DNA from: Tubiluchus corallicola
Lineage: Eukaryota; Priapulida; Priapulimorpha; Priapulimorphida; Tubiluchidae
DNA length: 64,000 bases
Assembly: GCA_030141605.1 (NCBI GenBank)
Contig: JAQGDQ010000732.1
Location: forward strand, 41,751 to 105,750
Direction: 5' to 3'
The position numbers were made by a program, and so were the translations under genes. This document shows, in pieces, positions 1-44,298 of this stretch. Below the pieces are notes generated by a model that saw only the letters and a list, made by a program, of their open reading frames with translations, was not told the origin of the DNA and did no database searches. Positions within the stretch are counted from its first letter, which is position 1. Each line of letters opens with the position of its first letter.

Positions 1-286
1 AAAGTTTTATATCTTCAAGCAAAGAAAACAAGAGCCATACTATTCAAAGACTTTTATAAACAATTGCGATGTTTAGAAAATGAGTCTCCTGTGAAGATAT
101 TTGTACTTGTCAGTGCTTCTGCCTTTGCAATTACACACGATTTTCCTTGTCACATTTTTTAAAATTCGCTATTTGATGACAGTTTAGGGGCTGCATTGCA
201 TGTAAAACTGGAAAAAAGTAGTATAATAACCACATGCATAGAATGTTATTAAACTGATGAGCAATACAACTCTTTATCATACTGAC

Positions 287-1120
287 CTGTCAATGTAAAT
301 GATATATGATTATGCTGAAAATCATATTTGAATATAGGCTCCCTTAATCGTGTTATTATTGGACTGTCATATATGCCAAGAAAATTGAAGTGCTTGTTGT
401 TTGAGAAGTCAAAATCTAATAAGGCTAGCTTCGCATTATCACGGATAATCAGATCCCGAAGATATACCATTTTGCTGAATGCCCTTTGATGTATGAAGAA
501 AAGTCTTTCATTGTAGGCTATTTCCAGTCGATTAAATTCAAATTCACTGTTGTGGATACAGTCCTTTTGCAGCCGCTGCAAATTTGTATAACGTATGATT
601 AGGCTAATAAGCTGACGTCCTTCTAGAAACCTTTCAGGAAGTTCAGAGTCTGCATAGTAATCGATGTAAAGATTTCGAAGTTTTATATCTCGTGGTTGTA
701 ATCCTGCTTGCAACCAAATACTGGGTAGTTCCAATTTACTGTAGTTTTTACAATTTACATCTTTATATTTGGCACCTACTGAAACATCGCATTTTGTTAA
801 ACTTAAAGAACTCGTTAAAGTTTTATAAGTTGTTGAAGTAAAGACACTTGTCGAGTTGATGCTGGTTGTTATATTCAGCTCTGACATTGTGGCGTTTGAT
901 GCCATCGCTGTTGTGTTCATCATCGTTGTATTTGCAGGTGACGTTGTTGTTTCTGATGCAAGGCAAAGAAAATTCTCATTTTCAAAATAAATGCATTCTT
1001 CTGTAAAATCACTGCGGCTTGCATTAAGCACTTCGTCAGGATAATAACAATCAACTATTGACTGTCTCCAATTTTGTGTCTTTATCCATAACAGCTGACA
1101 GTCGCAAATGAGGCAAAGGC
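287..1120 (-). CDS. LRR gene cassette exon 7 (LRRCT - long Thr/Ser linker - LRRNT - LRR)
   Basis: Internal exon of 834 nt, phase 1 at both ends. The acceptor (TTTCAG/GC) is at the high-coordinate end and the donor (CAG/GTCAGTATG) at the low end. It opens with an LRR C-terminal-cap start (CLICDCQLLWIKT), then NASRSDFTEEC with a glycosylation sequon. The linker is the longest of the array, about 60 residues rich in Thr/Ser/Asn with many N-x-S/T sites and mucin-like in look. An N-terminal-cap-like segment (Cys...NCKNYSK) and LRR-like repeats ending NHISFTLT follow. It is clearly more diverged from exons 3-6 than they are from each other. The intact donor implies at least one further exon beyond the left edge. 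If the donor is not used, reading runs 12 codons into a stop. Presumed extracellular binding module; ligand unknown. Confidence 0.8.
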
Positions 1121-1674
1121 CTGAAAGCATAAGAGAAATAACTATTTATATTTGTATTTATGAGTTTAACTGGTCACAGAGCAGTACCAGTTGTTAAGTT
1201 TTCCTGTGCTTGTAAACTTGCCTTTATTTTCATTTTCTCGTTTGTGTATAATTTATTTCTGATCAAATCAAATTGGATTAAATATTTTTTTTATTTTTTT
1301 CAAAGGCATTTATAAGCAGACCATTCCTCACTGCGAAAAACTGTATTTAGGGTTTCAAGGTTTAATTAGATCTTGCTTGCCGTGCTGCAAACAAAATAAA
1401 AATACTTTGTTTATATAATATAATCAAAGACTTATGTACGATATGATTATGTGATTAAATGTTTTATGAGAGATATATAAGATATAGGAAATTATTATAT
1501 ACTCACAACAGAATTTTACAAACAATTTTCCTGATTATCACATTTTTTAAAGTTCGCTATTTGATGCCAGTTTAGGGGCTGCATTGCACGTAAAACTGGA
1601 AAAAAGTAATATAATAGCCACCTGCGTACAATGTTTTTAAACTGATGAGCAATACAACTCTTTATCATACTGAC
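1121..1674 (-). other. LRR gene intron 6
   Basis: Intron of 554 nt between cassette exons 7 and 6. Its low end (about 1530-1670) is near-identical to 150-286, just beyond exon 7, so the tandem duplication unit includes flanking intron. No gene seen inside. The stretch 1-286 is the start of the next intron. Confidence 0.7.
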
Positions 1675-2385
1675 CTGTCAATGTAAATGATATATGATCA
1701 CGTTGAAAATCGTATTTGAATCTAGGCTCCCTTAATCGTGTTATTATTGGACTATCGAAAATGCCAAGAAAATTGAAATGCTTGTTATCCGAGAAATCAA
1801 AATCCACTGACATTAGCTTTGCATTGCCACGAATATGCAGTTCTCGAAGGTATACCACTTTGCTGAATGCCTTTGGATGTATGGAGGAAAGCCTGTCATT
1901 ATAAATTATTTCAAGTTGATTAAATTCAAATTCACTGCTGTGGATGCTATCCTTTTGCAGACTCTCCAAATTTGTGTAACGTATGATTAAACTAACAAGC
2001 TTATGTCCTAAAAGAAACCCTTGAGGAAGTTTAGAGTCTACATAATATTCTATGTAAAGACTTCGAATTTTTACATCTCGTTGTTGTAATCCTTCTTGCA
2101 ACCAAATTTTGGGTAGTAGCCATTTGGTGTAGTTTTTACATATGATGTCTTTATACGTGAAGGAAAATCTCACTTCACATTCCTTTGGACCAGTCGCCAT
2201 TGTTGTTGCTGGTGACCTCGTTATTCGTGATACATCACAGACCACAGTGTCATTTAGACACTCTTCAGTAAAATCGCTGTGACTAGCATTAAATGATTCA
2301 ACCGGATGATAACAATCAATTAACGATTGTCTCCAGTTGCCTGTCTTTATCCACAAAAATTGACAGTCACAAATTAGACAATTGC
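1675..2385 (-). CDS. LRR gene cassette exon 6
   Basis: Internal exon of 711 nt (237 codons' worth), phase 1-1, acceptor CTTGTAG/GC and donor CAG/GTCAGTATG. Domain order: LRRCT start CLICDCQFLWIKT; NASHSDFTEECLNDT with two sequons; short Thr/Ser linker; CEVRF...ICKNYTK N-cap-like segment; LRR-like repeats ending DHISFTLT. Spliced to another cassette, the junction reads FTLT-G-NCLICDC, a normal LRR-to-LRRCT transition, which supports the splice sites. Upstream in-frame codons at 2386-2509 are intron read-through and not part of the exon. Very similar to exons 3, 4 and 5, so a recent duplicate. Secreted or cell-surface module by inference from exon 1. Confidence 0.85.
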
Positions 2386-5105
2386 CTACAAGTACAAAAC
2401 AAAAGTATTTATCAAGAAAAATTTGAAAATTTTTCATTTCAGATTTGTTTTTGCAATTTTTTATGAAGGCTGATATTATCATTTGAAGCTGACTGGTTAT
2501 AGCTTTCATTGACAGGACCAGTTCAATTTTCCATCATCAGTATTAGCTAATTTTTTCTGCGCATTAGTAATATTATAATATCATATTGAAGCCTAATCAC
2601 CTTCTTTGTCATCGTAAATTTTAATAGTACTGATTTAATATTTTTAAATTACACTTTTAGGAACTATTCTTTTTACACTCATTAATCAACAAAAGAATTT
2701 GTAATGTGCAACAACCGGGCTTTATGGAGTTTGTACGAAAACCTCGAAATGTGAAAAAAGTGAAGAAGCTGCTTTGTGAACACACTTTGTTTGCTGTCCT
2801 TTTTGTTATGTTTTGCATCTCGGCAAATTAAATATTCATTTATGGTAAGTTCCAGTACTTTTTACAAGCAAGCTTTTGAGAGAATTACAAAAAGAATTAT
2901 AACATTAATAACGTATTCTTAAAATTTGTTTTTTAACACCAAATATTTATAAAGACCTGTTTGGCGTGCAAATGTGTGATGAAGGTTGATTGTACCCAGT
3001 CAGCTTGAACATTTTTAAATTGGTGAGCTATACATCTGATTACATTTCTGACCTGTCGAGGTAAAGAGCATATGATCATGTTGAAGATCTTTTTTGAATC
3101 CAGGTTCCTTTAGGCGTGTTAATAATGGACTATCATATGCTTTGAGAAAACAAAATCTAGTGAGATTAGTTTTGCACTGTCACGAAGATGCAGCTCATGA
3201 AGATGTAGAATTTCACTGAATGTCCTTGGATGTATGAAGAGAAGTCTATCATTCAGTTTCAGTGCTGTAGATTTCCTGTATTTGGAGTTGGTACACCTGA
3301 TGACATGCTATTGGCTCACCCAAAGTGTTACGAAAACTTAAAACAACTTTTTGTTATTCAAAATATTTTTTTAAACACATGCAATTTTAATAGTAATTGT
3401 AAGACATGACCGGTTGAGAGCAACATACCCATTATTGTGACAACAAGCATATTATCTTAAGCAAATCTGTTAATTAAATAATGATGTGGACATGCTAGTA
3501 TTCTGGACTATGTTCTGGAAAAAACTCTAAATCAAATTACGAAGAAACATCATTATCAGAAATTTTCTAAAACTTTGTTAAGTTTCTTTTGCCTATTGTG
3601 TAGATTAATACAAACAACAGGTATTGGCTGTTACTGACCTTGTAATTTTCCATATTTATTTATACATCTGTGTCTTAATAGCAGTTAGGGTACCGATAGG
3701 AAGCTGTTGCAGATATCTTAGCAGCAACAACATATTAATTTTGTAACATTTTATTGGAATAGTATGAAGCCAATCTTTATATGCATATGGCTTACTTATC
3801 ATTGTTAGAAACCACACTTGTAAATCAATGACATATCCAATATCCAATTCTTTAAAAAGCAGTGTTAATTACTGAAGTAGCTACTCTCAAAAACGTAACC
3901 TAAAAATAGCAAATATTGATATGCATTTCATGCGAATGATAGAGTGATATTTTTGAACAAGTAGTCGACATTAATGTAAAAAAAACTAACAATTTCTGAA
4001 AATTATTATTTGGTTGCATGTTGACACTTCCATTTGAGAAACTATACTGTGACAGAATCACCTGTATTCAGCTGTAATTACATACAGATTGACAATGTAA
4101 ATGTTGAAGCATGCTTCATTCGTTTGTTAACTAATTCTGCTCTGGGTTAGTAGATAACTTTTCTTCCAAACAACCATTACCATCAAGGAATGTACGACTC
4201 CACTAAGTCTCATTTTTGATTTTTAATTTTAACACAAACAACAATTGCATGATGTAACCGATTTGGCCATTTTACACATGCTTTTCAGCATCATTGGCAT
4301 ATTTTCCACTTACAATCAGCAGTAAAATTACCAATTTGAAAAACGTGCTTTTCACCAAAGCAGGTATGTTAAAATTGCCTTATTTTTTGTTATAATATTG
4401 TAATTATAGTGACTACTGTTATAGATGCTTGTTTGTGACTGAAAGAAATGCACATTCTTAAATATCTGCAGAAGCATGGCTCTCTCTTGTCAAAAGCACA
4501 GTTAAACACTGAGGTGGTTGCACGCAAACAAGAAAGCTTTAAATAAATAAAATGACTTTCCCGTACGTTTTAGACAGCAGGAATATGATATATTTCAGAA
4601 AAGCCACTGGCACAAGCAACTAATGTCTTTTCCGAAAACTGATTCTAATGTATCTTGCCACTTGAATTTGGGTAATTATACTGTGAAGAAGCGATTCTAT
4701 TCAGCAATTGTAAGACAATGCTGATTGGTGCACAATCTTGCTGTGCTGAGTTTCTATTGGAATTTGCAAATTTGAGAAAGATAAATAGGCTGCACCGGGA
4801 ACACTTTTGTTTATTAGTTTTTTTAATAAATTCCACGTATAAATAAATTATATCTTTATAATTTGTTTTCAGGAAATTATATCATAAGACCTTATAAGCT
4901 GATACTACTTTCTGCTGATAAACTATTACGAGTTTGGCAATATAAGGAACGTGACATCACTATCACCTGTTCAAAAAAAATTTGTTTGTTGATGCAAAAT
5001 TGCTAGGCCTGGATAGCGCACGAAAGTACGATAAGTGTAGGCCAAAAGCAACCTACTGAGAATGTTATTAAATTAGCTAGCAATCCTCCACTTTAACATA
5101 CTTAC
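2386..5105 (-). other. LRR gene intron 5 with a decayed exon
   Basis: Longest intron of the array (2.7 kb). It contains a degenerate cassette exon at 3053-3273 (listed separately). The segment 3300-5100 is repeated in the other long introns, for example about 6220-7900 and 11,260-12,900. Short ORFs here are not conserved as protein. No independent gene seen. Confidence 0.7.
3053..3273 (-). pseudogene. Decayed LRR cassette exon fragment
   Basis: The minus strand still shows the 3' end of a cassette exon: a donor-like GACAG/GTCAG, sequence matching the final LRRs, and the 'IHPRTFSEIL' region closest to exon 1. It has an internal deletion around the NKHFNFLG region, frameshifts, and no LRRCT half. 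It lies inside intron 5 and is presumably spliced out. It shows that the array once held another member. Confidence 0.7.
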
Positions 5106-5822
5106 GTTTCAAGGTGAACGATATATGATCATGTTGAAAATCGTATTTGAATCTAGGCTCCTTTAGTCGTGTTATTGGACTATCGTAAATGCCAAGAAAA
5201 TTGAAATGCTTGTTATCTGAGAAATCAAAATCCACTGACATTAGCTTTGGGTTGCCACGAATATGCAGTTCTCGAAGGTATATGACTTTGCTGAATGCCT
5301 TTGGATGTATGAAGTAAAGTCTGTCATTATAAATTATCTCAAGTCGATTAAATTCAGATTCACTGCTGTGGATGCTATCCTTTTGCAGTCTCTCCACATT
5401 TGTATAACGCATGATTAAACTAATAAGCTTATGCCCTAAAAGAAACCCTTCAGGGAGTTCAGAGTCTACATAATATTCAATGTAAAGACATCGAATTTTT
5501 ACATCTCGTTGTTGTAATCCTTCTTGCAACCAAATTTTGGGTAGTAACCATTTAGTGTAGTTTTTACATATGATGTCTTTATATGTGATGGAAAACCTCA
5601 CTTGACATTCTTTTGGACTTGAAAAACCTGTCACCATAGTTGTTACTGGTGATGTCGTCGTTCGTGATACATCACAGGCCACAGTGTCATTTAGACACTC
5701 TTCAGTAAAATCGCTACGACTAGCATTAAACACTTCAACGGGATGATAACAGTCAATTAACGATTGTCTCCAGTTGCGTGTCTTTATCCACAAAAGTTGA
5801 CAGTCACAAATTAGACAATTGC
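5106..5822 (-). CDS. LRR gene cassette exon 5
   Basis: Internal exon of 717 nt, phase 1-1. Acceptor ACTTTTAG/GC and a strong donor AAAC/GTAAGTATG. It encodes LRRCT start CDCQLLWIKT, NASRSDFTEECLNDT, a short linker (TTTSPVTTMVTG...), cap segment CQVRFSI...ICKNYTK, then LRR-like repeats through 'HPKAFSKVIYLRELHIRG' to HISFTLK. The donor splits a codon so that C+GC gives Arg before NCLICDC of the next cassette. Relative to exons 6 and 7 one Ile codon is missing in the SPI(I)TRL motif. Read-through past the donor gives RKYVKVEDC and a stop. Same inferred role as the other cassettes. Confidence 0.85.
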
Positions 5823-7948
5823 CTAAAAGTAGAAAATAAAAGTATTTATCAAGAAAAATTTGAAGATTTTTCGTTTTTGATTTAGTTTTGCAATTTTTTA
5901 TAAAATTGTCAAGGCTAATACCATCATTTGAAGTTAAATAGCTATAGCTGACACTGACAGGAACACTTCAAATTTCCATCCACATTTTGAGCTACTTTTT
6001 TGCTCATTAGTAATATTGTATCCTTCTAATGAAAAAGACTTCTTGAAGCTCGCATCTCCTTTGTCATTATGCATATATTTTAGATTGTTTGAAATTTCGA
6101 CAGTATTGATTCAATATTATGAAACGAAACTTTTGGGAACTATCCTTCTTGCACACTTTTATGAACTTTAGCTGGATATAGAGTAATATTTCCATTATAA
6201 CTACCTGCCCTATAGTAAACATTTCTTGTATTTGGAGTTGGTACACATGGTATGATCAATGAGCAACATACACGTTATTGTGACAACAAGCATATTATCT
6301 TAAGCAAATCTGTTAATTAAATGGTGTGGACATGCTAGCATTCTGGACTATCTTCTGGAAAAAGCTTTAAACCAAAGTACAGAGAAACATCATCATCAGA
6401 AACGTCTAAACTTTGTTAATTTTCTTTTGCCTATTGTGTAAATTAATACAAACAACAGGTACTGGCTGTTACTGACTTTGTAATTTTCCATATTTATTTA
6501 TACATCTGTGTCTTAATAGCAGTTATGGTACCGATAGAAAGCTACTGCAGATATCTCAGCAGTAACAACATATTAATTTTGTAACATTTTATTGTAATTA
6601 TATGAAGCCAATCTTTATATGCATATGACTTTCTTATCATTGTTAGAAACCACACTTGTAAATCAATGACCCATCCAATATACAATTCTTTAAAAAGCAG
6701 TGTTAATTACTGAGGCAGCTACTCTCAAAAACGTAACCTTAAAATGGCAAATATGGATATACATTTTATGCGAATGATAGAGTGATATTTTTGAAGAAGT
6801 AGTCGACATTAATGCAAAACCAACTAACAATTTCTGAAAATTATTATTTGGTTGCATGTTGACACTTCCATTTGAGAAACTATACTGTGACAGAATCGCC
6901 TGTATTCAGCTGTAGTTACATACTGATTGACAATATAAATGTTGAAGCATGCTTCATTCGGTTGTTAACTAATTCTGTTCTGGGTTAGTAGATAACTTTT
7001 TCTTCCAAACAACCATTACCATAGAGGAATGTACGACTCCACTAAGTCTCATTTTTGATTGATTGGTTTTTAATTTTAACAAAAACAACTATTGCATGAT
7101 GTAACCGATTTGGCCATTTTACACATGCTTTTAAGCACCATTGGCATATTTCCGACTTACAATCAGCAGTAAAATTACCAATTTGAAAAACGTGCTTTTC
7201 ACCAAAGCAGGTATGTTAAAATTGCCTTATTTTTTGTTATAATAATGTAATTATAGCGACTATTGTTATATATGCTTGTTTGTGACTGAAAGAAATGCAC
7301 ATTCTTAAATATCTGCAGAAGCATGGCTCTCTCTTGTGAAAAGCACAGTTAAACACTGAGGTGGTTGCACGCAAACAAGAAAGCTTTAAATAAATAAAAT
7401 GACATTCCCGTACGTTTTAGACAGCAGGAATATGATATATTTAAGAAAATCCATTGCCACAAATGGCTAATGACGTTTCCGAAAACTGATTCTATTGTAT
7501 CTTGCCACTTACATTTAGGTAATTATACTGCGAAGAAACGATTCTATACAGCGATTGTATGACAATGCTGACAGGTGCACAGTCTTGCTGTACTGAGTTT
7601 CTATTGGACGTTGCAAATTTGAGAAAGATAAATAGGCTGCACCGGAAACACATTTCTTTATTAATTTTTTATTAAATTCTACGTATAAATAAATTATATG
7701 TTCATAATTGTGTTTTCAGGATATTATACCTTAAGACCTTATAAGTTGCTTGTACTTTTTGTTGGTAAACTATTAAGAGATTGGAAATATTAGGCACCAG
7801 CAGCGCTATCATCGTTCAAAAGTTTTTTGGTTGACGCAAAGTTCCTAGGCCTGGATAGCGCACAAAAGTACGATACGTGTTGGCCAATAGCTGGCTTCTG
7901 AGGACGTTATTAAAATTGGCAACCAATCCTCCACTTTAACATACTTAC
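5823..7948 (-). other. LRR gene intron 4
   Basis: Intron of 2.1 kb, colinear and near-identical over long stretches with introns 5 and 2. No independent gene seen. Confidence 0.7.
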
Positions 7949-8665
7949 GTTTCAAGGTGAACGATATATGATCATGTTGAAAATCATAATTGAATCTAGG
8001 CTCCTTTAGTCGTGTTATGGGACTATCATATATGCCAAGAAAATTGAAATGCTTGTTAGCTGAGAAATCAAAATCCACTGACATTAGCTTTGCATTGCCA
8101 CGAATATACAGATCTCGAAGGTATACCACTTTGCTGAATGCCCTTGGATGTATGGAGGAAAGTCTGTCATTATAAATTATCTCAAGTCGATTAAATTCAG
8201 ATTCTCTGCTATGGATGCTATCCTTTTGCAGTCTCTCCAAATTTGTATACCGTATGATTAAACTAATAAGCTTATGCCCTAAAAGAAACCCTTCAGGAAG
8301 TTCAGAGTCTACATAATTATCGATGGAAAGGCTTCGAATTTTTACATCTCGTTGTTGTAGTCCTTCTTGCAACCAAATTTTTGGTAGTAACCATTTAGTG
8401 TAATTTTTACATATGATGTCTTTGTACGTGATGGAAAATCTCACTTCACATTCCTTTGGACTTAAAAAACTAGTCGCCACTGTTGTTGCTGATGATCTCG
8501 TCGTTCGTGATACATCACAGGCCACAGTGTCATTTAGACACTCTTCAGTAAAATCGCTACGACTAGCATTAAACACTTCAACCGGATGATAACAATCAAT
8601 TAACGATTGTCTCCAGTTGCGTGTCTTTATCCACAAAAGTTGACAGTCACAAATTAGACAATTGC
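7949..8665 (-). CDS. LRR gene cassette exon 4
   Basis: Internal exon of 717 nt, phase 1-1. Acceptor CTTGTAG/GC, donor AAAC/GTAAGTATG. LRRCT start CDCQLLWIKT, NASRSDFTEECLNDT, linker TTRSSATTVATSF, cap segment CEVRFSI...ICKNYTK, and LRR-like repeats with 'HPRAFSKVVYLRDLYIRG'. In this copy the reading frame stays open about 34 codons past the donor into the intron, unlike its neighbours. That looks accidental because the donor is intact and conserved. One of the central, most recently duplicated cassettes. Confidence 0.85.
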
Positions 8666-10131
8666 CTACAAGTACAAAATAAAAGTATTTATCAAGAAAA
8701 AATGAAGATTTTTCATTTTTGATTTAGTTTTGCAATTTTTCATAAAATTGTCAAGGCTAATACCATCATTTGAAGTTGAATAGCTATAGCTGACACTGAC
8801 AGGACCACTTCAAATTTCCATCCACATTTTGAGCTACTTTCTTTGTTCATTAGTAATATTGTATCATTCTAATGAGAATGACTTCTTGAAGCTCGCATCT
8901 CCTTTGTCATTATGCATATGTTTTAGATTGTTTAAAATTTCGACAGTATTGATTCAATATTTTGAAACGAAACTTTTGGAAACTATCCTTCTTGCACACA
9001 TTTATGAACTTTAGCTGGATATAGAGTAATATTTCCATTATAACTAACTGCCCTATAGCAAAAATTTCCTGTATTTGGAGTTGGTATACCTGATGACATG
9101 CTGTTGGCTCACCCAAAGTGTTACAAAAACTCGAAACAACAATGGTTATTCAAAATATTTTTTAACACATGCAACTTTAATAGTAATTGTAACACACGAC
9201 CAGTGGCGACTGCACGACTCCACCAAGACTCATTTTTGATTTACTTGTTTTTTTATTTTAACAAAAACAACAATTGCATGATGTAACTGACTTTGGCATT
9301 TTAAACATGCTTTTAAGCACCATTGTCGTATTTTCGACTTACAATCAGCAGTTAAATTACCAATTTGAAAAACGTACTTTTCACCAAAGTGCACATTTTA
9401 ACATTGTTTTATTTCTTTGTTATAATATTGTAATTCTAGGGACTGTTGTTATATATGCTTGTTTGTGACTGAAAGAAATGCACATTCTTAAATATCTGCA
9501 GAAGCATGACTCTCTCTTGTGAAAAGCACAGTTAAGCACTGGGGTGGTTGCACGCAAACAAGAAAGCTTTAAATAAATAAAAAGACTTTCCCGTACGTTT
9601 TAGACAGCAGGAATATGATATATTTAAGAAAAGCCACTGGCACAAGCGGCTAATGACTTTTCCGAAAACTGATTCTAATGTATCTTGCCACTTGAATTTG
9701 GGTAATTATACTGTGAAGAAGCGATTCTATTTAGCAATTGTATGACAATGCTGACAGGTGCACAGTCTTGCTGTACCGTGTTGTTATTGGAATTTACAAA
9801 TGTGAGAAAGATAAATAGGCTGCACCGGAAACACATTTCTTTATTAATTTTTTATTAAATTCTACGTATAAATAAATAATATGTTCATAATTTGTTTTCA
9901 GGAAATTATATCATAAGACCTTATAAGCTGATACTACTTTCTGCTGATAAACTATTACGAGTTTGGTAATATAAGGAACGTGACATCACTATCACCTGTT
10001 CAAAAATTTGTTTGTTGACGCAAAATTGCTAGGCCTAGATAGCGCACGAAAGTACGATAAGTGTAGGCCAAAAGCAACGTACTGAGAATGTTATTAAATT
10101 GGCTAGCAATCCTCCACTTTAACATACTTAC
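8666..10131 (-). other. LRR gene intron 3
   Basis: Shorter (1.47 kb) than the related introns. It matches them at both ends but lacks roughly 0.7-0.8 kb corresponding to about 6240-7020, with the joint near 9200. Several short ORFs here (8829-9468) are intron sequence without protein conservation. Confidence 0.65.
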
Positions 10132-10839
10132 GTTTCAAGGTGAACGATATATGATCATGTTGAAAATCGTGTTTGAATCTAGGCTCCTTTAGTCGTGTTA
10201 TTGGACTATTGTAAATGCCAAGAAAATTGAAATGCTTGTTATCTGAGAAATCAAAATCCACTGACATTAGCTTTGGGTTGCCACGAATATACAGTTCTCG
10301 AAGGTATATGACTTTGCTGAATGCCTTTGGATGTATGAAGGAAAGTCTGTCATTATAAATTATCTCAAGTCGATTAAATTCAGATTCACTGCTGTGGATG
10401 CTATCCTTTTGCAGCCTCTCCAAATTTGTGTAACGTATGATTAAACTAACAAGCTTATGTCCTAAAAGGAACCCTTCAGGAAGTTTAGAGTCTACATAAT
10501 ATTCAATGTAAAGACTTCGAATTTTTACATCTCGTCGTTGTAATCCTTCTTGCAACCAAATTTTGGGTAGTAGCCATTTGGTGTAGTTTTTACATATGAT
10601 GTCTTTATACATGAAGGAAAATCTCACTTCACATTCCTTTGGACCAGTCGCCATTGTTGCTGCTGGTGACCTCGTCGTTCGTGATACATCACAGGCCACA
10701 GTGTCATTTAGACACTCTTCAGTAAAATCACTACGACTAGCATTAAACACTTCAACCGGATGATAACAGTCAATTAACGATTGTCTCCAATTGCGTGTTT
10801 TTATCCATAAAAGTTGACAGTCACAAATGAGACAATTGC
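10132..10839 (-). CDS. LRR gene cassette exon 3
   Basis: Internal exon of 708 nt, the shortest cassette, phase 1-1. Acceptor CTTGTAG/GC, donor AAAC/GTAAGTATG. The open frame runs the full length: CLICDCQLLWIKT at the start, NASRSDFTEECLNDT, linker TTRSPAATMATG, cap CEVRFSF...ICKNYTK, LRR-like repeats to HISFTLK. The linker matches exon 6 while the LRR end matches exon 5, which suggests gene conversion or unequal crossing-over within the array. Same inferred extracellular role. Confidence 0.85.
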
Positions 10840-12945
10840 CTACAAGTACAAAACAAAACTATTTATAAAAAAAATTTGAAAATTTTTCATTTTTGATTTA
10901 GTTTTGCAGTTTTTTATAAACTTGTCAAGGCTAATATCATCATTTGAAGTTGAATAGCTATAGTGGGCACTGACAGGACCACTTCAAATTTTCATCCACA
11001 TTTTGAGCTACCTTTTTGTTCATTAATAATATTGTATCATTCTAATGAGAAAGTCTTCTTGAAGCTCGCATCTCCTTTGTCATTATGCATATATTTTAGA
11101 TTGTTTGAAACTTCGATAGTATTGATTCAATATTTTGAAACGAAACTTTTGGGAACTATCCTTCTTGCACACTTTTATGAACTTTAGCTGGATATAGAGT
11201 AATATTTCCATTATAACTACCTGCCCTATAGTAAACATTTCTTGTATTTGGAGTTGGTACACATGGTATGATCAATGAGCAACATACACGTTATTGTGAC
11301 AACAAGCATATTATCTTAAGCAAATCTGTTAATTAAATGGTGTGGACATGCTAGCATTCTGGACTATCGTCTGGAAAAAGCTTTAAACCAAAGTACAGAG
11401 AAACATCATCATCAGAAACGTCTAAACTTTGTTAATTTTCTTTTGCCTATTGTGTAGATTAATACAAACAACAGGTACTGGCTGTTACTGACTTTGTAAT
11501 TTTCCATATTTATTTATACATCTGTGTCTTAATAGCAGTTATGGTACAGATAAGAAGCTACTGCAGATATCTCAGCAGTAACAACATATTAATTTTGTAA
11601 CATTTTATTGTAATTATATGAAGCCAATCTTTATATGCATATGGCTTTCTTATCATTGTTAGAAACCACACTTGTAAATCAATGACATATCCAATATCCA
11701 ATTCTTTAAAAAGCTGTGTTAATTACTGAAGTATCTACTCTCAAAAACGTAACCTTAAAATAGCAAATATGGATATGCATTTCATGCGAATGATAGAGTG
11801 ATATTTTTCAACAAGTAGACGACATTAATGCAAAACCAACTAACAATTTTTGAAAATTATTATTTGGTTGCATATTGACACTTCCAGTTGAGAAACTATA
11901 CTGTGACAGAATCGCCTGTATTCAGCTGTAGTTACATGCTGATTGACAATGTAAATGTTGAAGCATGCTTCATTCGGTTGTTAACTAATTCTGTTCTGGG
12001 TTAGCAGATAACTTTTCTTCCAAGCAACCATTACCATTGAGGAATGTACGACTCCACTAAGTCTCATTTTTGATTTATTGGTTTTTAATTTTAACAAAAA
12101 CAACAATTGCATGATGTAACCGATTTGGCCATTTTACACATGCTTTTAAACATCATTGGCATATTTTCGTCTTACAATCAGCAGTAAAATTACCAATTTG
12201 AAAAGCGTGCTTTTCACCAAAGCAGGCATGTTAAAAGTGCCTTATTTTTTGCTATAATATTGTACTTATAGTGACTGTTGTTTTATATGCTTGTTTGTGA
12301 CTGAAAGAAATGCACATTCTTAAATATCTGCAGAAGCATGACTCTCTCTTGTGAAAAGCACAGTTAAACACTGGGGTGGTTGCACGCAAACAAGAAAGCT
12401 TTAAATAAATAAAATGACTTTCCCGTACGTTTTAGACAGCAGAAATATGATATATTTACGAAAAGCCACTGGCACAAGCGGCTAATGACTTTTCTGAAAA
12501 CTGATTCTATTGTATCTTGCCACTTGCATTTGGGTAATTATACTGTGAAGAAGCGATTCTATTCAGCGATTTATATGACAATGCTGAGAGGTGCACAGTC
12601 TTGCTGTACTGAGTTTCTATTGGACGCTGCAAATTTGAGAAAGACAAATAGGCTGCACCGGAAACACATTTCTTTATTTATTTTTTATTAATTTCCACGT
12701 ATAAATAAATTATATCTTTATAATTTGTTTTCAGGAATTTATATCATAAGACCTTATAAGCTGATACTACTTTCTGCTGATAAACTATTACGAGTTTGGT
12801 AATATAAGGAACGTGACATCACTATCACCTGTTCAAAAATTTGTTTGTTGATGCAAAATTGCTAGGCCTGGATAGCGCAGGCCAAAAGCAAACTACTGAG
12901 AATGTTATTAAATTGGCTAGCAATCCTCCACTTTAACATACTTAC
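10840..12945 (-). other. LRR gene intron 2
   Basis: Intron of 2.1 kb, near-colinear with introns 4 and 5. Landmark shared segments include the CTGTGTCTTAATAGCAGTTA stretch and the GACAGCAG...ATGATATATTTA stretch. No independent gene seen. Confidence 0.7.
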
Positions 12946-13659
12946 GTTCCAAGGTGAACGATATATGATCATGTTGAAAATCATACTTGAATCTAGGCTC
13001 CTTTAGTCGTGTTATGGGACTATCGTAAATGCCAAGAAAATTGAAATGCTTGTTATTTGAGAAATCAAAATCAACTGACGTTAGCTTTGCATTGCCTCGA
13101 ATATACAGATCTCTAAGGTATATCACTTTGCGGAATGCCCTCGAATGTATGGAGGCAAGCCTGGCATTATGAATTATTTCCAGTCGATTAAATTCAGATT
13201 CTCTGCTATGGATGCTATCCTTTTGCAGTCTCTCCAAATTTGTATACCGTATGATTAAACTAATAAGCTTATGCCCTAAAAGAAACCCTTCAGGAAGTTC
13301 AGAGTCTACATAATTATCGATGTAAAGACTTCGAGTTTTTACATCTCGTTGTTGCAATCCTTCTTGAGACCAAATTTTGGGTAGTAACCATTTAGTGTAG
13401 TTTTTACATATAATATCTTTATACTTGACAGCAAATCTCACTTCACACGCTCCTGGACTCGTAGAAAATGTTGTCGCCATTGATGTAGGTGGCGGCGTTC
13501 GTGATACAGCACAAACTACAGCGTCGTTTACGCATTCTTCGGTAAAATCACTGCGACTAGCATTAAATACTTTAAAGGGATGATAACAATCAATTACTGA
13601 TTGTCTCCAGTTGTGTGTCTTTATCCACAAAAGTTGACAGTCACAAATTAAACAATTGC
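12946..13659 (-). CDS. LRR gene cassette exon 2
   Basis: Internal exon of 714 nt, phase 1-1. Acceptor ACTTGCAG/GC, donor GAAC/GTAAGTATG. First full cassette after the signal-peptide exon. It encodes CLICDCQLLWIKT, NASRSDFTEECVNDA, a distinctive linker (TPPPTSMATTFSTS), cap segment CEVRFAV...ICKNYTK and LRR-like repeats with 'HSRAFRKVIYLRDLYIRG'. Somewhat more diverged than exons 3-6. Spliced from exon 1 the junction gives FTLT-G-NCLICDC, a coherent LRR/LRRCT boundary. Confidence 0.85.
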
Positions 13660-15133
13660 CTGCAAGTATAAAAGAAAACTATTCATTGTGAAAAATTTGA
13701 AGAATTTTCATTGATGATTTGATTTTATGAAATTGTCAAGGCTGATTTCAAGGTTGAATAGCTATAGCCTGCACTGACACTGAGGTTTCCATCTCCACTC
13801 CAGTTTTCCATCCACAGAATAAGCTACTTTTTTCTGTGCACTAGTAATATTGTGTCATTCCAATAAGAAAGACTACTTGAAGCTCGCGTCATCTTTTTTG
13901 TCATTATGTATTGATTTTAGATGAGTTTGAATTGTTGTAAGTATTGATTCAATATTTTGAAATGAAACTTTTGGGAACTATCCTTCTTGCACATATTAAT
14001 CCATTTTTGCTGGACATACTGTAATATTTCGTTATAAATGTCATACTGCAGCACAAATTTCTTATGTTGGGAGTTGGTGGCTTGTGACATGGCTATCTAG
14101 TGATTCAAAGTATTGTAAAAACTTACAATAACTTTTACAATTCCAGACATTTTTTGATACACGTGCATTTTTACCTGTAATTGTAAGGCATGACCAGTTG
14201 CAAGCAGCATACACATTATTGTGGCAACAAGCACATTATCTTAAGCAAAGCTGTTAATTAAATAATGATGCGGACATTCTAGTATTTAGAACTGTGTTTA
14301 GAAAAGATACATCATCACCAGAAACTTCGTAAACTTTGTTAAATTATTTTTGCCTAATGCGTAGTTTATTACAAACAACAGGTGCTGGCTGTTACTGATT
14401 TCACAATTTTTCATTTTATTTATATATCTGTGTCTAAAACGCAACTATGGTACCGATTGAAAGCTGCTGCAATCATTTAGAGCAGCAACGATATAATATT
14501 TTTTTAAAAATTTATTTTAATTACATGAAGCCAAATTGTATATGCATATGCCTTTCTTGGGATTGAAAGAAATCACTTATCTACATGCCATTACATGTCC
14601 ATCTCCCTGAAAAGCAGCATTAGGCACTGAAGTAGCCACTCTCAAAAAAGTAGCCTTGGAATTGAAAATATGTATTGACTTTGACATACATTTTACAGAT
14701 TTGACAAAATTATATCGGTCAACTTTAATGCATTCATTTCTGTTTTTGAGAATTCTTATTTGGTTGCACTTTGCTACTTCCATTTGAGTAATTATTCTGT
14801 GAGAGAATCGTCTCAATTCAGGAGAATTAAAGACTGTTGCACATCACAAATTCTTTTGGTGACGAGTTTTTATGAAAACTTCGAAATATAAGCAAAGTTA
14901 AGAGGTGGCATGCGTTGTTAAATTATTTTGTTTACTAAGCTTTTAATAATCTTTGCATATAGACAACTTATACATTAATTTTTGTTTGATCTGTAGTCTT
15001 TTTTTCACGCTAATTTTTGCGAGGTTTACGAAAAGTATAATATTAATAAAGCATTTTCAAAAACTACTTGTTTACACCAAATATTTGCAAAGAGAAATAA
15101 ATTTGAAGTGGGAGAACAATATATCTTACTGAC
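13660..15133 (-). other. LRR gene intron 1
   Basis: Intron of 1.5 kb. More diverged relatives of the array introns are recognisable (for example about 14,200-14,560). The minus-strand ORF at 14,577-14,816 is not conserved in the other introns and is not supported as a gene. Confidence 0.65.
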
Positions 15134-15710
15134 CTGTCAAAGTAAACGATATATGATCATTTTGAAAATCGTATTTGAATCTAGGCTTCTTTAGTCGTGT
15201 TATTGAGCTATCGTAAATGCCAAGGAAATTGAAATGCTTGTTATTTGAGAAATCAAAATCCAGTGAAATTAGTTTTGCGTTGCCGCGAAGATGCAGCTCA
15301 CGAAGATATAGAATTTCACTGAATGCCTTTGGATGTATGAAGAGAAGCTTATCATTATCAGTTATTTCCAGTCGATTAAACTCAGTTTCAGTGCTGTAGA
15401 TACAATTTTCTCCAAGGGAACTCAAACTTGTACGCCGAACAATTAAATCAAGAAGCTTACGTCCAAAAAGAAACCCTTCAGGAAGTTCAGAGTCTATATA
15501 ATAATCAATGAATAGACTTCGAATTTTTACATCTCGTTGCTGTAAACCTTCTTGCAACCAAATTTTGGGTAGTTCCACTTTAGTGTAGTTTTTACATGCT
15601 ACATCTTTATACTTGGCAGCAAATCTCACTTCACATTCTGAAAGCATCTGGACGCAAGGATTATATAATACAATCAAAAGACATACCACGGCAAAAATAA
15701 TCAGAAACAT
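15134..15710 (-). CDS. LRR gene exon 1: signal peptide plus first LRR module
   Basis: First coding exon, 577 nt, ending in phase 1 at donor GACAG/GTCAGTAAG. The start is the ATG at 15,710-15,708; an in-frame GTG two codons upstream is not needed. Residues 1 to about 20 (MFLIIFAVVCLLIVLY...) form a hydrophobic signal peptide. Next come CEVRFAA...ACKNYTK (N-cap-like, Cys-x10-Cys), then LRR-like repeats with 'HPKAFSEILYLRELHLRG', ending NDHISFTLT. It lacks the LRRCT and linker half found in the cassettes, so it is the 5' terminal module. The protein is therefore secreted, or membrane-bound if a later exon supplies an anchor. The family was not identified further. Confidence 0.8.
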
Positions 15711-15830: not shown

Positions 15831-18782
15831 TCTCAAGGTGATTCTGAGATGGCGGACACATCCCTCGCTAGCCTCAACAGCTTACAGCCTAGCTCAGAAA
15901 GCGAATCAAATTCGTTTTCCAAAATACCCAATAGAGCTTTCAAGCATTTCAATACATTGTTGATTAGAATGCCTCTTGTCACAATGATTCCACACTAAGA
16001 ATAACACAACCCACAAAACACGCAGATCAGAACACACACAAAAAGAATTTGTTCTAAAATGTATTATTATTACTTATATACGCCTACGTATAGCAAATCG
16101 ACATAAAATTTGTTGAAATTAGCAAGCTGTAGGCATGTAGCCACATTTTGCAGATCACAAATGAGATTGTATCACGTTCTAAGAGCTGTAAACATGCACG
16201 CTAGTTACCCTAATTTTCCTCAAATTTGTATGCCAGGTTTTGCCGTCAACCACAAGGATCCAGAACAAATCTTCCTGCTCACCATAAATGTTGGGGTTCT
16301 CCAACATGTATTGTTTTTCCTAAAGTGAGGATCTGGTACTGCAAAAGTAAATGTCCTTCTTCATCATTGTAATACGACTGTTGTGTGAGTTACTGTTTGT
16401 GCAGTTATTAAAAGTAGTTTTGACGGTTTCTTAAGACTTCTTATAGCTGATTTAGCTATAAGCTAATTGTATTGTCCAGTGACTCCCTACCTTCTATGAA
16501 ATAAAGGCTGTAGCGAAGTGTGCATAGTTCTAAGTTGGTTGCAGGAAATCTGGCTGGAACTGAGCCATAGGCTTGCTAAAATGCTGCATGCAGTAGTTTT
16601 TCTCTCAAATTTCTGTGTTAAAATAAACCTCTTCATTATGTGAAAAGGTATTTCGCATAATGAAAAACGAAAAACATAAGGTTATTTGACATGATTTTCT
16701 GAGATTTCAAATGCAAGCATAAAGAGATCATGTTTAACACTGCCGCAGTTGTGAGCTATCATCTGTTGATCTGTGTGAATGCTTGTCTGCATAGATGCCA
16801 GATAGTCTACAATGCAACAACGTAAACATTGTTACTATAATACTGAACTACAAAACTTCTAGAAAATCATTTTTGCAAATAACGCTGCTACGCAAGAGCA
16901 ACTTCACAACTAAGTTTTTTAATCATAACTTGCACCTAATACTATTACGTTGAGAAAATATGACTGACAAACGTGTGTTTAATCTATTACATTTACAAAC
17001 GTCCCATCTCATTGCCAAAAATTATAATAAGCGAGAGTTTGAAGATCTGGGAACATCAATGGCACTTGATGTTCTAGATTGGAACACTAGCAAAGAAAAT
17101 TTAGCACTGAAACTGAATTTAATCGACTGGAAATAACTGATAATGATAAACTTCTCTTCATACATCCCAGGGCATTCAGTGAAATTTTGTATATGAACCA
17201 AGTTCATTGTTTCGGGGCCCAACGTGCACAAAATATCGTGATAGTCAGGGGTAAATTTGTTACCAAAAAGTTGAAGTGGCAGTTGAACCAACGCGTAGCC
17301 TACGCGCTTTTTAACAAAACTATAAAGGATGCTACTAGGGAGCGCAAAGTTAAGTAGCGTTTATATGACATGCGGATGTGTGTGCGTTTTGAATGGTGCG
17401 AAATAGATAAAATCGATTTATATTGTTTACAATGCACCCGTTTTTGCAGCCTATCTATGCGTTATTTTTTTCAGCTAATCCTATTTGATTTTTCCACAGG
17501 TCCAAAACGCATTTGCATCAGCATGCAACCTAAATGCCACTTCAATAAGTTCAATAAGTAGATCGTTCACATTTCATTCTTGGACATGGTCACGTGTACC
17601 CCAATTTAACGATTTCATTAACATGAATGTGTTTTAGTAGAAAAATAGTTTCTTGCTAGTTGGAAGTCATTTAATTTGGACAAAACTGTACATTGCCTGT
17701 TGTTTCCTAGTTTTCATCTATCTTCTTTGATTGAACCCATGTATTTGGTATTTGCAACATTTCCAGGGTTGATCTCGACTCTAGAAATGCTATATTCTTT
17801 AGTTTTCTTGTAGACGACTTTGAGATTCCTTTTTTCTAGTTTTTAGAGCAGTTTTAATGTGTGCGGAATTTTCAAATTCTAATCCATCCATGTCGTGGGC
17901 GTGTTGTTGGGCTATTAGAAATGGCTGATAGGAATCCGATGCAGGAGCAGCATGACCAACCAGATATCAACAAAAAACATTAGTGTTTAAAGATGCATTA
18001 GTGTTGTTTGCTATAGAACTTTCAGTATTTCAGAAAAATTGACTGCAAAACCATCCAACGACATTTTTTAATTGTGCGTACTTTTTAAAAAGCATTTACA
18101 TCAACAAAAAACACTAATTTTTAAAGATATTTGTGTTTTTTCAGAAGAAATTTGAAATTATATTCAGTAAAGATTAAAGAGCCAATTAAAAACGCAAACC
18201 GACGAACCGAAAATATAATGAATTCTGTTCCTACCTTTATATTTTAGCGTAAATAATTTAATATTAACAATACCGTAATAAACGTGACGAGAATGAAGTC
18301 GGCTAGCCTGTTATTGTTCTAGTTGAACACAGACCGCATAATAAGTATGTTTGAGACCTCACAAGATACTAGATCTCTTCAAAATTTCACCCACGGTTTT
18401 ATTCTAGGTCGCGTGGCAAAGATGTTTACTCACATATTTCTGATTAGGTCTACAAATAGTTCAGTTTAAACAAGTCCCTATTGTTCAAACTATGGCGCGA
18501 GCCACTGCTGTTTGTATACTGCAGTACGTAAAATAAAGGTTGGACATAAAAAGTAAGCCCTTTTGAAATATTCATTAGAACTAGTTCTATTCGCTTCGAA
18601 ATGTAAACACAAGTTTTATAGACAATACCTACTTTAAGCAATACAAAATTTGGATATTTGGACAAAAAACAACCATTAAGTTAGATAGTTAAACCAAGTG
18701 AATAAATTTAAAGCGGATTACGTAGCTTTAATTAATTAATTAATGAACGAATTGGAAAAAATATTGATGTTGACTTGACGTT
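15831..18782. other. Gene-poor region upstream of the LRR gene
   Basis: AT-rich DNA with short unsupported ORFs (15,813, 16,110, 17,370). The only recognisable coding remnant is the inverted LRR fragment at 17,101. A stretch at about 16,390-16,640 loosely resembles 35,230-35,460 and may be an old dispersed repeat. Confidence 0.5.
17101..17196 (+). pseudogene. Inverted LRR exon fragment
   Basis: The plus strand reads TETEFNRLEITDNDKLLFIHP and then RAFSEILYM without a stop, almost the same as the matching part of exon 1 (15,126-15,400), but in the opposite orientation and without splice sites. It is a displaced, truncated piece of the array's first-exon type. Confidence 0.75.
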
Positions 18783-22084: not shown

Positions 22085-22284
22085 CTGAAAAACAAACGTT
22101 CATTGGTGTCAACAAAACAGTGTTAACCTAACCAACTGCAGTCTCCCCAGAACCTGCTAAATGTACAACATAAAAAACATGAAGCTTTGCACTTTCAATA
22201 TACAAATTGTCAAAATTTACAGCTCTATACAAGATTTACGTAAAATTTTGAAATGCTTTCAAAAGTTTACAACATCCTGCAGCA

Positions 22285-22713
22285 GCTGCTGTTAATGCAT
22301 TGTTTAAACTAAACATGCAGTATTAGTAGCTGCTTTTATGCATTGTTTAAACTCAACATCCAGTAGTAGCTGCTGTTAATGCATTGTTTAAACTAAACAT
22401 CCAGTAGTAGCTGCTGTTAATGCATTGTTTAAACTAAACATGCAGTATTAGTAGCTGCTGTTAATGCATTGTTTAAACTAAACATCCAGTAGTAGCTGCT
22501 GTTAATGCATTGTTTAAACTAAACATCCAGTAGTAGCTGCTGTTAATGCATTGTTTAAACTAAACATCCAGTAGTCGCTGCTATTAAGGCATTGTTTAAA
22601 CTAAACATCCAGTAGTAGCTGCTGTTAATGCATTGTTTAAACTAAACATCCAGTAGTAGCTGCTGTTAATGCATTGTTTAAACTAAACATCCAGTAGTAG
22701 CTGCTGTTAATGC
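22285..22713. repeat. 41-bp minisatellite, about 11 copies
   Basis: Unit begins TTAATGCATTGTTTAAACTA and continues AACATCCAGTAGTAGCTGCTG. Units differ by a few bases (CCAG/GCAG, GTAGTAG/GTATTAGTAG). Each contains the palindrome GTTTAAAC. It lies inside the intron between the exons at 22,006 and 22,999. Confidence 0.9.
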
Positions 22714-22998
22714 AAAGCTACAAAGCTACTCATAACGTGACATTCAATTTTAATAAATTGTCAAGTAACATAAGAATAGAAACAAATTCAAGTTTGTATT
22801 AATGTAGAAACATTTAATAGAAGTTTGTCTAAATTTGTACCAAATAAATTAGCACATTGTTTAATTTTGTTAATTTTGATCAGCTTATGCATCTCAGAAA
22901 TGTTTAAATTGAAGTTTTAGCAAGAAATAATGATCTAATTTGAATACTCTTCCCTCACTGACTTATATAAAATGACCAGAGTAGCAAAATGACCTTAC

Positions 22999-38245: not shown

Positions 38246-38378
38246 GGAATCCAAACACCAGTACGCTGTCAGTGAGGGCACCACGACGAAGTACACCACT
38301 TCTGCATAGAGATCTGCATAAAATAACCAACCGGAAATACACCACTTCTGCATAGAGATCTGCATAAAATAACCAACC

Positions 38379-38394
38379 GGCCCTTTTCAGGGCC
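38379..38394 (+). terminator. Histone-type mRNA 3' stem-loop (copy 0)
   Basis: GGCCCTTTTCAGGGCC followed by ACAAA matches the metazoan replication-dependent histone 3' stem-loop consensus (GGYYCTTTTCAGRRCC plus ACA). A purine-rich GAAAGAAAA lies about 14 nt downstream, like a histone downstream element. It is 134 nt after the stop of the Gln-rich frame. No histone coding sequence is nearby. A 46-bp tandem duplication sits just upstream (38,287-38,380). Confidence 0.8.
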
Positions 38395-38469
38395 ACAAAA
38401 TTTATCCGAAAGAAAATTCTGATTTTGCAAATTCAACTGTCTCCTAATTATTAAAATTTAATTTTAAAC

Positions 38470-39715: not shown

Positions 39716-39724
39716 TAACCAACC

Positions 39725-39740
39725 GGCCCTTTTCAGGGCC
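39725..39740 (+). terminator. Histone-type mRNA 3' stem-loop (copy A)
   Basis: Identical GGCCCTTTTCAGGGCC + ACAAAA, again followed by GAAAGAAAATTCTG, 246 nt after the Gln-rich frame of copy A. Confidence 0.8.
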
Positions 39741-40358
39741 ACAAAATTTATCCGAAAGAAAATTCTGATTTGCAATTTATTAAATTAATTTAAATTAAAT
39801 TTAAAAAACAAAATTAAAACAGAATTCTTCTGACTTTTCAATATTAATATCTCTTATATTAATTTCGCTGGTATCTTAATATATATATTTATATATAAGA
39901 TTCGAGGCTACAGCCCCGACGAGGGCACCATTTGCGGCGATCTATACATCAAACGAAAGGTCTCGATCTAGAGTCGTGCCATTGAACAACTCTCCCTAAT
40001 TATTAAAATTTAAAATTCAAACAATATTTTTTATTTTTCTTTCCTTCATAACAATAATATACACATTGCATATGTCAAATAAAACTTTAACCGTTTAGTG
40101 GTTAATATTCAATCAAATAATATCGTTTTGAACGTATTGGCCATTATTTGCCTCTATATACTGTAAGCTGAGAACTCATACACAAGTTATATATAGCCAA
40201 AATGCAGTACGGCTTTGATTTGGTGCGAAAAACAAGAAAATAGTAACTGCGAAAAATGATAATAATTAACAACAATAACACCAACAACAAATTCTTGGAC
40301 AATTCATGGCACACGTGCAAACACAACTTGAACGAATTTTACTTTCAGGTTATTATAA
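39741..40358. other. Repeat debris, including a fourth Gln-rich gene fragment
   Basis: 39,898-39,990 matches 49,612-49,705 (GATTCGAGGCTACAG, AAAGGTCTCGATCTAG). 40,010-40,130 is the direct repeat described above. 40,270-40,340 is a scrap of the Gln-rich exon (ATTCTTGGACAATTCATGGC, ACACAACTTGAACGA). No functional gene. Confidence 0.6.
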
Positions 40359-41025
40359 CATTACCTGCGATTGGTTGAGCAGTGGTTTCCTGTGGAAAGA
40401 ACGAACACGTGACATCGTCAGTTGTCTTTTGGTTGTCGTGGAATGCACTTCTCCTCTCTGCCTGCCGAGTGTCGTGGATTCTGTAAGGTTTGAAGCATTG
40501 TCATCAGGTTATTTTTTTTCTATTGTGTTGTTCTTCTCAGCCGTCCCTTTTGCATTCAAAGTCTTGGTTTTGTTGTTTCGTTTGTTTAAATTTCTGGAGT
40601 GTCCGTTATGCAGCGCTTACCCGCATCACCGATGGCGGACCGTAAGGCTATCTACTGGGTCGAGCCCCGGAACAATATTGAAGTATTACTCCCCATCGCC
40701 TTAATTGTTCTGAAGAACAGCTATTTTACCTTCCACAACAGAAAATCAGGTAATAAACGCCATAAGAATGGAATCAGCGGCGATTATAATAATTACATTG
40801 TCCAAATGAGAAATAAAACTTATATTATGCCTACGGAGCTACAAATAATGGACAGACTGAAAGTAACCTTGCTAACACAGCTAAAGCTTTTAATACTTTC
40901 TTTCAATCTGTTGGGAACAATATGTGTAAAAAAATTCTCAATCTTTCTATTCATATCTCAAAGGCGAAAATAGACCAACTATTTTTCTTAATCCAACAGA
41001 GAATTGTGAAACCAAAAAATATATT

Positions 41026-42482: not shown

Positions 42483-42654
42483 TTATCACCTATTAATAGG
42501 TCTTACTCCCAAACTTAACTCAATTGCTGTTTTGCACATTTATATTCTCTTCTCTACTCTAGATTACTGAAACTTATTACCCACAATACAAAAAAAACTT
42601 TTTTATGATAAATCTCTTTGTAAGGATCCTTTACACACATATATGCATATGTAA

Positions 42655-42795
42655 ATATGCATATATGTGTGTGTATAAGTATGTGTACGTATGTGTGTAT
42701 GTATATATGTGTACGTATATGTATATGTGTGTGTATGTATGTGTATGAGTTTTTATATACATCTTTGCGTGCGTGCGTGCGTGTGTGTGAACCAA
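42655..42795. repeat. TATG/TGTA-type microsatellite
   Basis: Alternating ATATGTGTGTATGTA-like sequence ending in GTGCGTGCGTGCGTG. In duplicated copy 2 only the few flanking bases are present (55,475-55,490), so it expanded after, or collapsed since, the duplication. Confidence 0.85.
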
Positions 42796-42995
42796 AACCA
42801 CATGGGTGCTGATAATGCGTTACATGGTTTACTATCCTATTCCCAAAAATAAAAATATGCTTGCTTGCCCGCTTGAATATACTTGCTATATTTATGATTA
42901 AATTTGCTTTTTTGTTTGCTTTTCATTCAATAGCTGCATTTATAGATTGACGATTAATCTCGGTTTGTAGAAATTGATTTACTTGGTGTGAAATC

Positions 42996-43841: not shown

Positions 43842-44298
43842 TACTTACTGTACAAATTTTCTTCGTTTGTTTTTTTTTTGTTTTTTTTGTGCATTTATTA
43901 TTTAACTACATTTTCGTTCATTTGCTGCATTTTAGTTCACTCGCTGCATTTATGATTTAACCAGATTGCTTGCTTTTTTGTTGTTGCATTCATGACTTGT
44001 TCAGTTGTTGTTTTAATTTTTAATTGCGTTATTTGCTTGTTTTTTTCCATTGGTATAATTATAATATAACTGCCTTGCATTTTGTTTATTTGCTACACTT
44101 TAGACCTAACTACGTATTTATTCACTTAACCATGTAGTCTGTCGTGCTTTACAATATTTCTAAGTTATAATAGGGGTGGCTGACTCGATGACCTCCTGGT
44201 CTTTCGCCATCCTATCTCTACATACGTTACATAATTTGTTGTATTTGCGCTATAAATATTATATTAGAGATGAATAAAGCTTTGAATTGAATTGAATT
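43842..44298 (+). mobile_element. LINE 3' end with AATAAA and AATTG tail
   Basis: T-rich 3' region shared with copy 2 (55,715-56,150). It ends ...GAGATGAATAAAGCTTTGAATTGAATTGAA: a polyadenylation-like AATAAA followed by a short TTGAA-type tail, as many CR1/Jockey LINEs have. This marks the 3' boundary of the LINE, which inserted into the coiled-coil element before the block duplicated. Confidence 0.7.

Follow-up and report, generated by a model that had tools for sequence, protein, structure and literature searches.

Background

Slit proteins are secreted and carry four serial LRRNT-LRR-LRRCT domains (LRR, leucine-rich repeat) followed by EGF, LamG and CT domains, while LINGO-1/LRRN6A and LRFN5 are membrane proteins with one LRR domain and an LRRCT, followed by Ig or Ig/FN3 domains. 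To our knowledge, LINGO-1/LRRN6A and LRFN5 have a single LRR domain and no tandem cassettes. The NLRs are cytoplasmic and have one or two LRRs per exon. Here, we describe a tandem array of LRR-coding exons in 64,000 nt of DNA of the priapulid Tubiluchus corallicola (assembly GCA_030141605.1, contig JAQGDQ010000732.1, positions 41,751 to 105,750; "the window"), which is probably the 5' portion of a single animal gene. Its product would be a Slit-like protein, secreted or anchored at the cell surface, with serial LRRNT-LRR-LRRCT domains encoded by joined class 1-1 cassettes, i.e., exons that begin and end in phase 1.

Among the shuffled modules of metazoan extracellular proteins, class 1-1 symmetry is the rule (PMC8001218), and the NLRs are a known case of exon-modular LRRs that undergo alternative splicing (PMC6642158).

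Organization of the array

A preliminary description of this DNA had named a signal-peptide exon and six cassettes, each with an acceptor, a donor and phase 1 at both ends. When exon borders were read by script, the lengths of the six cassettes and the outer coordinates of the array were reproduced to the base, and the AG/GT borders and splice-site scores bear out the rest of that claim. The features of the array are, in order of transcription:

15134-15710, minus strand: exon E1, 577 nt from ATG to donor (CAG|GTCAGT), ending in phase 1; signal peptide (MFLIIFAVVCLLIVLY...), LRRNT-like cysteines and LRRs
12946-13659, minus strand: cassette C1 (LRRCT, linker, LRRNT-like part, LRRs), 714 nt, phase 1-1
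10132-10839, minus strand: cassette C2, 708 nt
7949-8665, minus strand: cassette C3, 717 nt, a mosaic of a C4-like LRRCT half and a C1-like LRR centre
5106-5822, minus strand: cassette C4, 717 nt
1675-2385, minus strand: cassette C5, 711 nt
287-1120, minus strand: cassette C6, 834 nt; its Ser/Thr-rich linker is 57 residues long
1-286, minus strand: beginning (5' end) of the intron that follows C6, from which we infer that the array continues past the window

The introns I1 to I6 between these exons measure 1474, 2106, 1466, 2126, 2720 and 554 nt, and the script-read borders show GT at seven of seven donors, AG at six of six acceptors and phase 1 at every joint. The joined frame of E1 and C1 to C6 is free of stop codons over 1659 codons, and combining the cassettes behind E1 in any in-order selection (64 subsets, with the empty one) brings in no stop codon either, just as the preliminary description had expected of any subset. 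All six cassettes have phase 1 at both ends and a length of 3n, as class 1-1 modules do. Their length differences (n = 6) are all multiples of 3, and none of the eight gaps between I2 and I4 is, seven of these being single-base gaps.

Each of the seven donors fits the consensus MAG|GTRAGT at 8 of 9 positions; of the 7199 GTs in the window, counted over both strands, 0.63% do so. Two donor types occupy this one site, CAG|GTCAGT in E1, C5 and C6 and AAC|GTAAGT in C1 to C4; in the latter, the exon position -1 is off the consensus and the intron has changed towards it, so that the donor score is kept. The acceptors have a pyrimidine at -3 in six of six cases and 10 to 12 pyrimidines in the preceding 14 bases, a richness equalled by 0.6-4.9% of 7226 AGs. 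Bases 1-286 are without a further exon and resemble the intron before C6 (91% across 159 nt); the array thus probably runs beyond the left edge of the window, and the six cassettes would be a minimum.

Domain structure of the predicted protein

E1 alone matches Pfam LRR_8 with E 7.5e-4, under the curated cut-off, and single-exon scans of E1, C4 and C6 each stay under it, while the spliced product E1-C1-C2-C3 exceeds it with six stretches (E 2.3e-15). A module profile made from five in-silico joined modules (the sixth joint, C3/C4, was omitted) matches LINGO-1 (2id5) with a whole-chain E of 3.6e-7. One LINGO-1 stretch, at profile positions 46-189, spans the exon joint (around 168) into the CDC...LLW cap and reaches E 1.7e-4 alone. 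A single cassette, read with its cap first, matches LINGO and TLR13 only as separate cap and LRR pieces. Taken together, the joint-crossing match and these split matches place the exon border between the last LRR and the LRRCT, so that the next cassette would cap the domain; this placement goes beyond the preliminary description, as do the continuation of the array past the window and the dead cassette described below. Further matches of the module profile are to FSH receptor (E 9.5e-4), TLR13 (E 0.0011) and, weakly, Slit (1w8a, E 0.0025; 2v9s, E 0.012). In tblastn with C4 and C6 (the rows of C1, C2, C3 and C5 were not printed), the LRRCT part is found outside the cassettes only as short matches of E 0.7 or worse; within the window, an LRR half would therefore be capped only by a later cassette.

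E1 begins with a hydrophobic stretch, its putative signal peptide, whose 19-residue windows starting at residues 1-8 exceed a Kyte-Doolittle mean of 1.6. Beyond it, one such window exceeds 1.6 at residue 1376 and none elsewhere. Signal peptide, LRRs and LRRCT cap are thus all present as in other extracellular LRR (eLRR) proteins, the cap through its matches to LINGO and LRFN5 and not through Pfam, and the LRRNT label denotes two cysteines (C-x12-C) before the first LRR, which match no model. The linkers consist of Ser, Thr and Pro to 42-62%. The N-glycosylation sequon NAS recurs in six of six cassettes and NYT or NYS in seven of seven exons; C6 has seven sequons, five of them inside its 57-residue linker. 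Across NCBIfam, the seven exon rows gave two families in one row each (E 0.0083 and 0.062), which we regard as chance.

Based on these data, we suggest that each domain is interrupted by a phase-1 intron that separates the last LRR from the LRRCT cap. An exon would then encode a domain in circularly permuted order, namely LRRCT - linker - LRRNT - LRRs. When exon k is spliced to exon k+1, domain k would be completed and domain k+1 begun, with the serial domains joined by Ser/Thr-rich linkers carrying N-glycosylation sites; E1 would give the signal peptide, and a later exon beyond the window would have to give the final cap and a tail. All or most cassettes seem to be included together, and the product may be an extracellular adhesion, matrix or recognition protein. 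Independent transcripts for each cassette were also considered and are less likely; by eye, the cassettes are without a signal peptide of their own except for a hydrophobic reading of the pyrimidine tract, and a leading LRRCT would cap nothing.

Growth of the array by duplication and probable exchange

Three further features record how the array may have grown:

4188-9207, minus strand: two-exon 5-kb segmental duplication (C4, C3 and intron), paired with 9208-14201 (C2, C1)
3045-3258, minus strand: dead cassette or exon remnant in intron 5, part of the LRR region altered by a deletion and a change of frame
17103-17192, plus strand: isolated inverted fragment of E1, 90 nt, 93% identical to part of E1 and apart from other exon sequence

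The two copies of the 5-kb duplication are 89.8% identical over 5061 columns, with C4 pairing with C2 and C3 with C1. The longer pieces common to I2-I5 are 88.7-94.4% identical and the 200-346-nt pieces near the I5 acceptor 70.5-79.5%; the units have thus been duplicated in tandem together with their introns, as is typical of class 1-1 arrays. C1 to C5 are at least 80% identical where compared, C2-C5 being the least and C6 and E1 the most divergent units. C3 is 98-99% like C4 in its first 165 alignment columns and 97-98% like C1 in its LRR centre (columns 450-615), and trees of the two halves agree with this mosaic (LRR half, C1+C3 with support 0.986; LRRCT half, C1+C6 with 0.961). Between I2 and I4, the middle is 93-100% identical and the outer windows 84-91%, a pattern of patchy homogenisation. 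Because both ends of a cassette are in phase 1, whole domains could be gained, lost or recombined by unequal crossing-over in the introns with the frame intact, and the two-exon duplication, the mosaic C3 and the dead cassette would be marks of such exchange. Unequal crossing-over and gene conversion between symmetric units would leave such marks and are the probable mechanism.

The remnant in intron 5 keeps a GT at the donor place, has lost its 5' half and resembles E1 most (75.6% over 238 columns, compared to 68.9-70.8% for C2-C6 and no printed match for C1). This likeness could mean that the array comprises two or more tandem genes, the first made of E1 to C4 and the next starting with the E1-like remnant as its first exon, followed by C5, C6 and whatever lies beyond. 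The sequence after the remnant (2727-2955) likewise resembles the intron after E1 (14864-15093) at 69.7%, and E1, C5 and C6 share a donor type that sets them apart from C1-C4. However, the interval between C4 and C5 yielded no LRRCT-coding stretch with which a first gene could end, the 5' part of the remnant is lost so that a signal peptide cannot be shown for it, the sequence upstream of the remnant is intron-like (3271-4071 compared to 14057-14821, 72%), and C5 is very close to C2 (93.8% at the nucleotide level). We therefore regard separate tandem genes as very unlikely.

Selection on the cassettes

The cassettes are under purifying selection. By the Nei-Gojobori method, omega is 0.19-0.30 in all 15 cassette pairs and 0.29-0.43 in the six pairs with E1, and pooled pN/pS across C1-C6 is 0.20 for the LRRCT, 0.68 for the linker and 0.32 for the LRRNT-LRR part. 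In random-substitution runs (1000 per pair for six chosen pairs of 21, with no multiple-hit correction), nonsynonymous counts lie under all 1000 runs for C2/C4, C1/C3 and C5/C6. The other counts are 70.6 for E1/C6 (mean of runs 85.5, minimum 70), 30.5 for C3/C5 (41.5 and 29) and 56.8 for E1/C4 (64.4 and 53). These runs support a constraint that is clear for the former three pairs and less sharp for the latter three. Fourfold-site differences of 7-17% among C2-C5 are close to the differences of around 6-11% in the longer shared pieces of I2-I5, as would be expected if the introns are near neutral; the 200-346-nt pieces near the I5 acceptor differ more (20-30%).

A decaying or non-functional repeat array, to which the dead cassette and the displaced E1 fragment might point, is hard to reconcile with six intact cassettes at such omega values and with splice signals kept at seven of seven donors and six of six acceptors; this explanation is disfavoured and seems extremely unlikely. 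With its signal peptide, open phase-1 joints, joint-crossing homology and purifying selection, the giant multi-LRR secreted protein that the preliminary description had offered as one of two possibilities is well supported.

Constitutive or alternative splicing

The other possibility was a splice-diversified receptor, in which cassettes would be chosen alternatively, singly or in variable subsets and numbers, and isoforms would differ in LRR surface or length. It finds some favour in the exposed strand positions of C1-C5, a set of 25 columns in five LRR strands picked by eye after the LxxLxLxx pattern, which only 5 of 300 random sets of LRR columns equalled in variability, a weak hint of diversification. 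However, this effect fades to 36 of 300 sets once C6 and E1 are added, and pN/pS is 0.47-0.49 and thus under 0.5, which would leave room for functional differences between modules and not for strong diversification. Symmetric class 1-1 exons are, moreover, common in modular extracellular proteins (PMC8001218).

The docking and selector RNA pairing that the preliminary description had proposed to look for was sought after the model of Dscam exon 6, in which a docking site in the first intron pairs with selectors before each variant exon. Two parts of I1 (first 700 and last 600 nt) were compared without gaps to the final 500 nt of each of the six introns, and in 11 of 12 comparisons the top-scoring duplex was no better than the best of 30 shuffles. 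The exception is I5 (score 63 compared to 35), where the duplex is due to a single inverted copy of 32 nt that the same test did not reveal in the other introns. This stretch lies in opposite orientations at approximately 2686-2717 (intron 5) and 14832-14863 (intron 1), where it adjoins the longer same-orientation match 2727-2955 / 14864-15093. Docking sites downstream of the array are on record for other clusters (PMC6071210); here such a site would be beyond the window, so that the test is not a full one. Introns beside mutually exclusive exons have also been reported to be under stronger selection (PMC6071210), but I2 and I4, the only pair scanned end to end, are less alike in their first two and last 150-nt windows (84-86%) than in the middle, and their flanks give no sign of constraint in the alignment; eight other intron pairs, compared over their 100-nt ends only, range from 0.43 to 0.95. 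A splice-diversified receptor thus has little in its favour and appears unlikely. Dscam-type splicing is not supported, and the close likeness of C1 to C5 (80% or more where compared) also speaks against it. Quite unlikely, too, is the broader proposal that permuted cassettes joined in variable number and combination form a multi-domain LRR repertoire by splicing, a counterpart of the lamprey variable lymphocyte receptors (VLRs) with germline turnover through unequal exchange. Constitutive serial joining is the simpler reading.

Several points nonetheless weigh against one gene with serially joined, capped domains. The Pfam LRRNT and LRRCT models match neither the single exons nor the spliced protein, and the names of the caps are based on the cysteine pattern and on PDB matches to LINGO and LRFN5 caps. 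The window does not hold a terminal exon, the 3' end of the gene being outside it, and no known promoter was recognised in it; a sigma-70 scan upstream of E1, not meaningful in an animal, was at background (6 compared to 6.2, sd 2.3). Symmetric 3n modules are said to favour exon skipping (PMC8001218), and some cassettes may well be skipped. As the remnant is most like E1, C5 and C6 may once have belonged to a second tandem gene.

Other features of the window

Outside the exons, transposons are found around the LRR array; together with the GT-AG introns and the LRR-LRRCT homology, they fit an animal genome. A large direct segmental duplication (40359-48338 / 53178-60267) has pieces that are 94.8-99.3% identical and includes a reverse-transcriptase open reading frame (ORF) at 41250-41966 (RVT_1, E 1.2e-26), with an ORF similar by eye in the other copy (54377-54952). 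An ORF at 50229-51104 has transposase-like DDE_1 and Tc5 DNA-binding domains and is followed by an adjoining ORF (50229-51593 overall) in a GC-richer bin (0.451). Another ORF of 287 aa (42978-43841) has segments that look hydrophobic by eye, and its best Pfam match (E 0.084) does not reach the cut-off; a 41-bp tandem repeat fills 22271-22714 with 10.7 copies. Two Rfam histone 3' UTR stem-loops (38374-38420 and 39720-39766, 39.7 bits each) lie near Gln-rich repeat ORFs and far from the array; inspection by eye of the ORFs listed in their surroundings revealed no histone. Rfam at gathering scores gave nothing beyond these two, and the window has no tRNAs.

Comparison with known systems

Relatives were found neither among phage records nor viral contigs (tblastn with C4) nor in GTDB genome contigs (searched with the alignment of the exons), where 76 stretches fit one of two patterns and none was confirmed. 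Among around 5.8 billion predicted proteins, the 8000 best word-sharing candidates gave one match (E 0.49, 37% over 11% of the query), not accepted as a relative, and an alignment of all seven rows with 7172 candidates gave none at E up to 1. We take these collections as mainly prokaryotic and viral, and the missing relatives therefore say little about animals. In a partial, exact-word search of open-licence PMC papers, we found no description of an exon array of circularly permuted capped LRR domains, nor did such a search of these papers yield a splicing-based LRR repertoire; in the main text of PMC8001218, "leucine-rich" and "LRR" do not occur.

The array is a clean natural example of an intradomain phase-1 intron by which a capped LRR domain can be multiplied as a whole, and of cassettes that exchange sequence in mosaic fashion while under purifying selection. 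Should its transcripts vary, the array would amount to an LRR repertoire created by splicing. An immune role, as raised in the preliminary description, is speculation, and nothing in the window points to one. An amphioxus LRR receptor of Slit2-N type, apparently exon-shuffled, promotes bacterial binding (PMC10199209), so that such a role would not be strange.

Like the class 1-1 modules of PMC8001218, the cassettes have phase 1 at both ends and a length of 3n and would be multiplied by intronic recombination, but their module border lies inside a permuted LRR domain and not at a domain edge. With the mutually exclusive arrays of Dscam1 type (PMC5465998, PMC6071210), they share tandem exons of similar length in an extracellular receptor-like gene, but no docking and selector set was found in the testable intron and all cassettes can join serially. 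As in the NLRs (PMC6642158), LRRs are held in modular exons, here with whole extracellular capped domains. Lamprey VLRs likewise draw on arrays of LRR-coding cassettes, which in the germline are incomplete and enter the gene through copying akin to gene conversion (PMC13428168), whereas all six cassettes of our array are complete with acceptor, donor and frame. LINGO-1 is the best match of the array among solved structures, across the joint of LRRs and LRRCT, though unlike LINGO-1 and LRFN5 the array multiplies its LRR domain in tandem cassettes. Slit, a weak profile match, likewise has a signal peptide followed by capped LRR domains in series, while the array has six complete domains and a seventh begun, each tandem copy encoded across two exons, and shows no EGF, laminin-G or cystine-knot part in the window, its 3' end lying outside.

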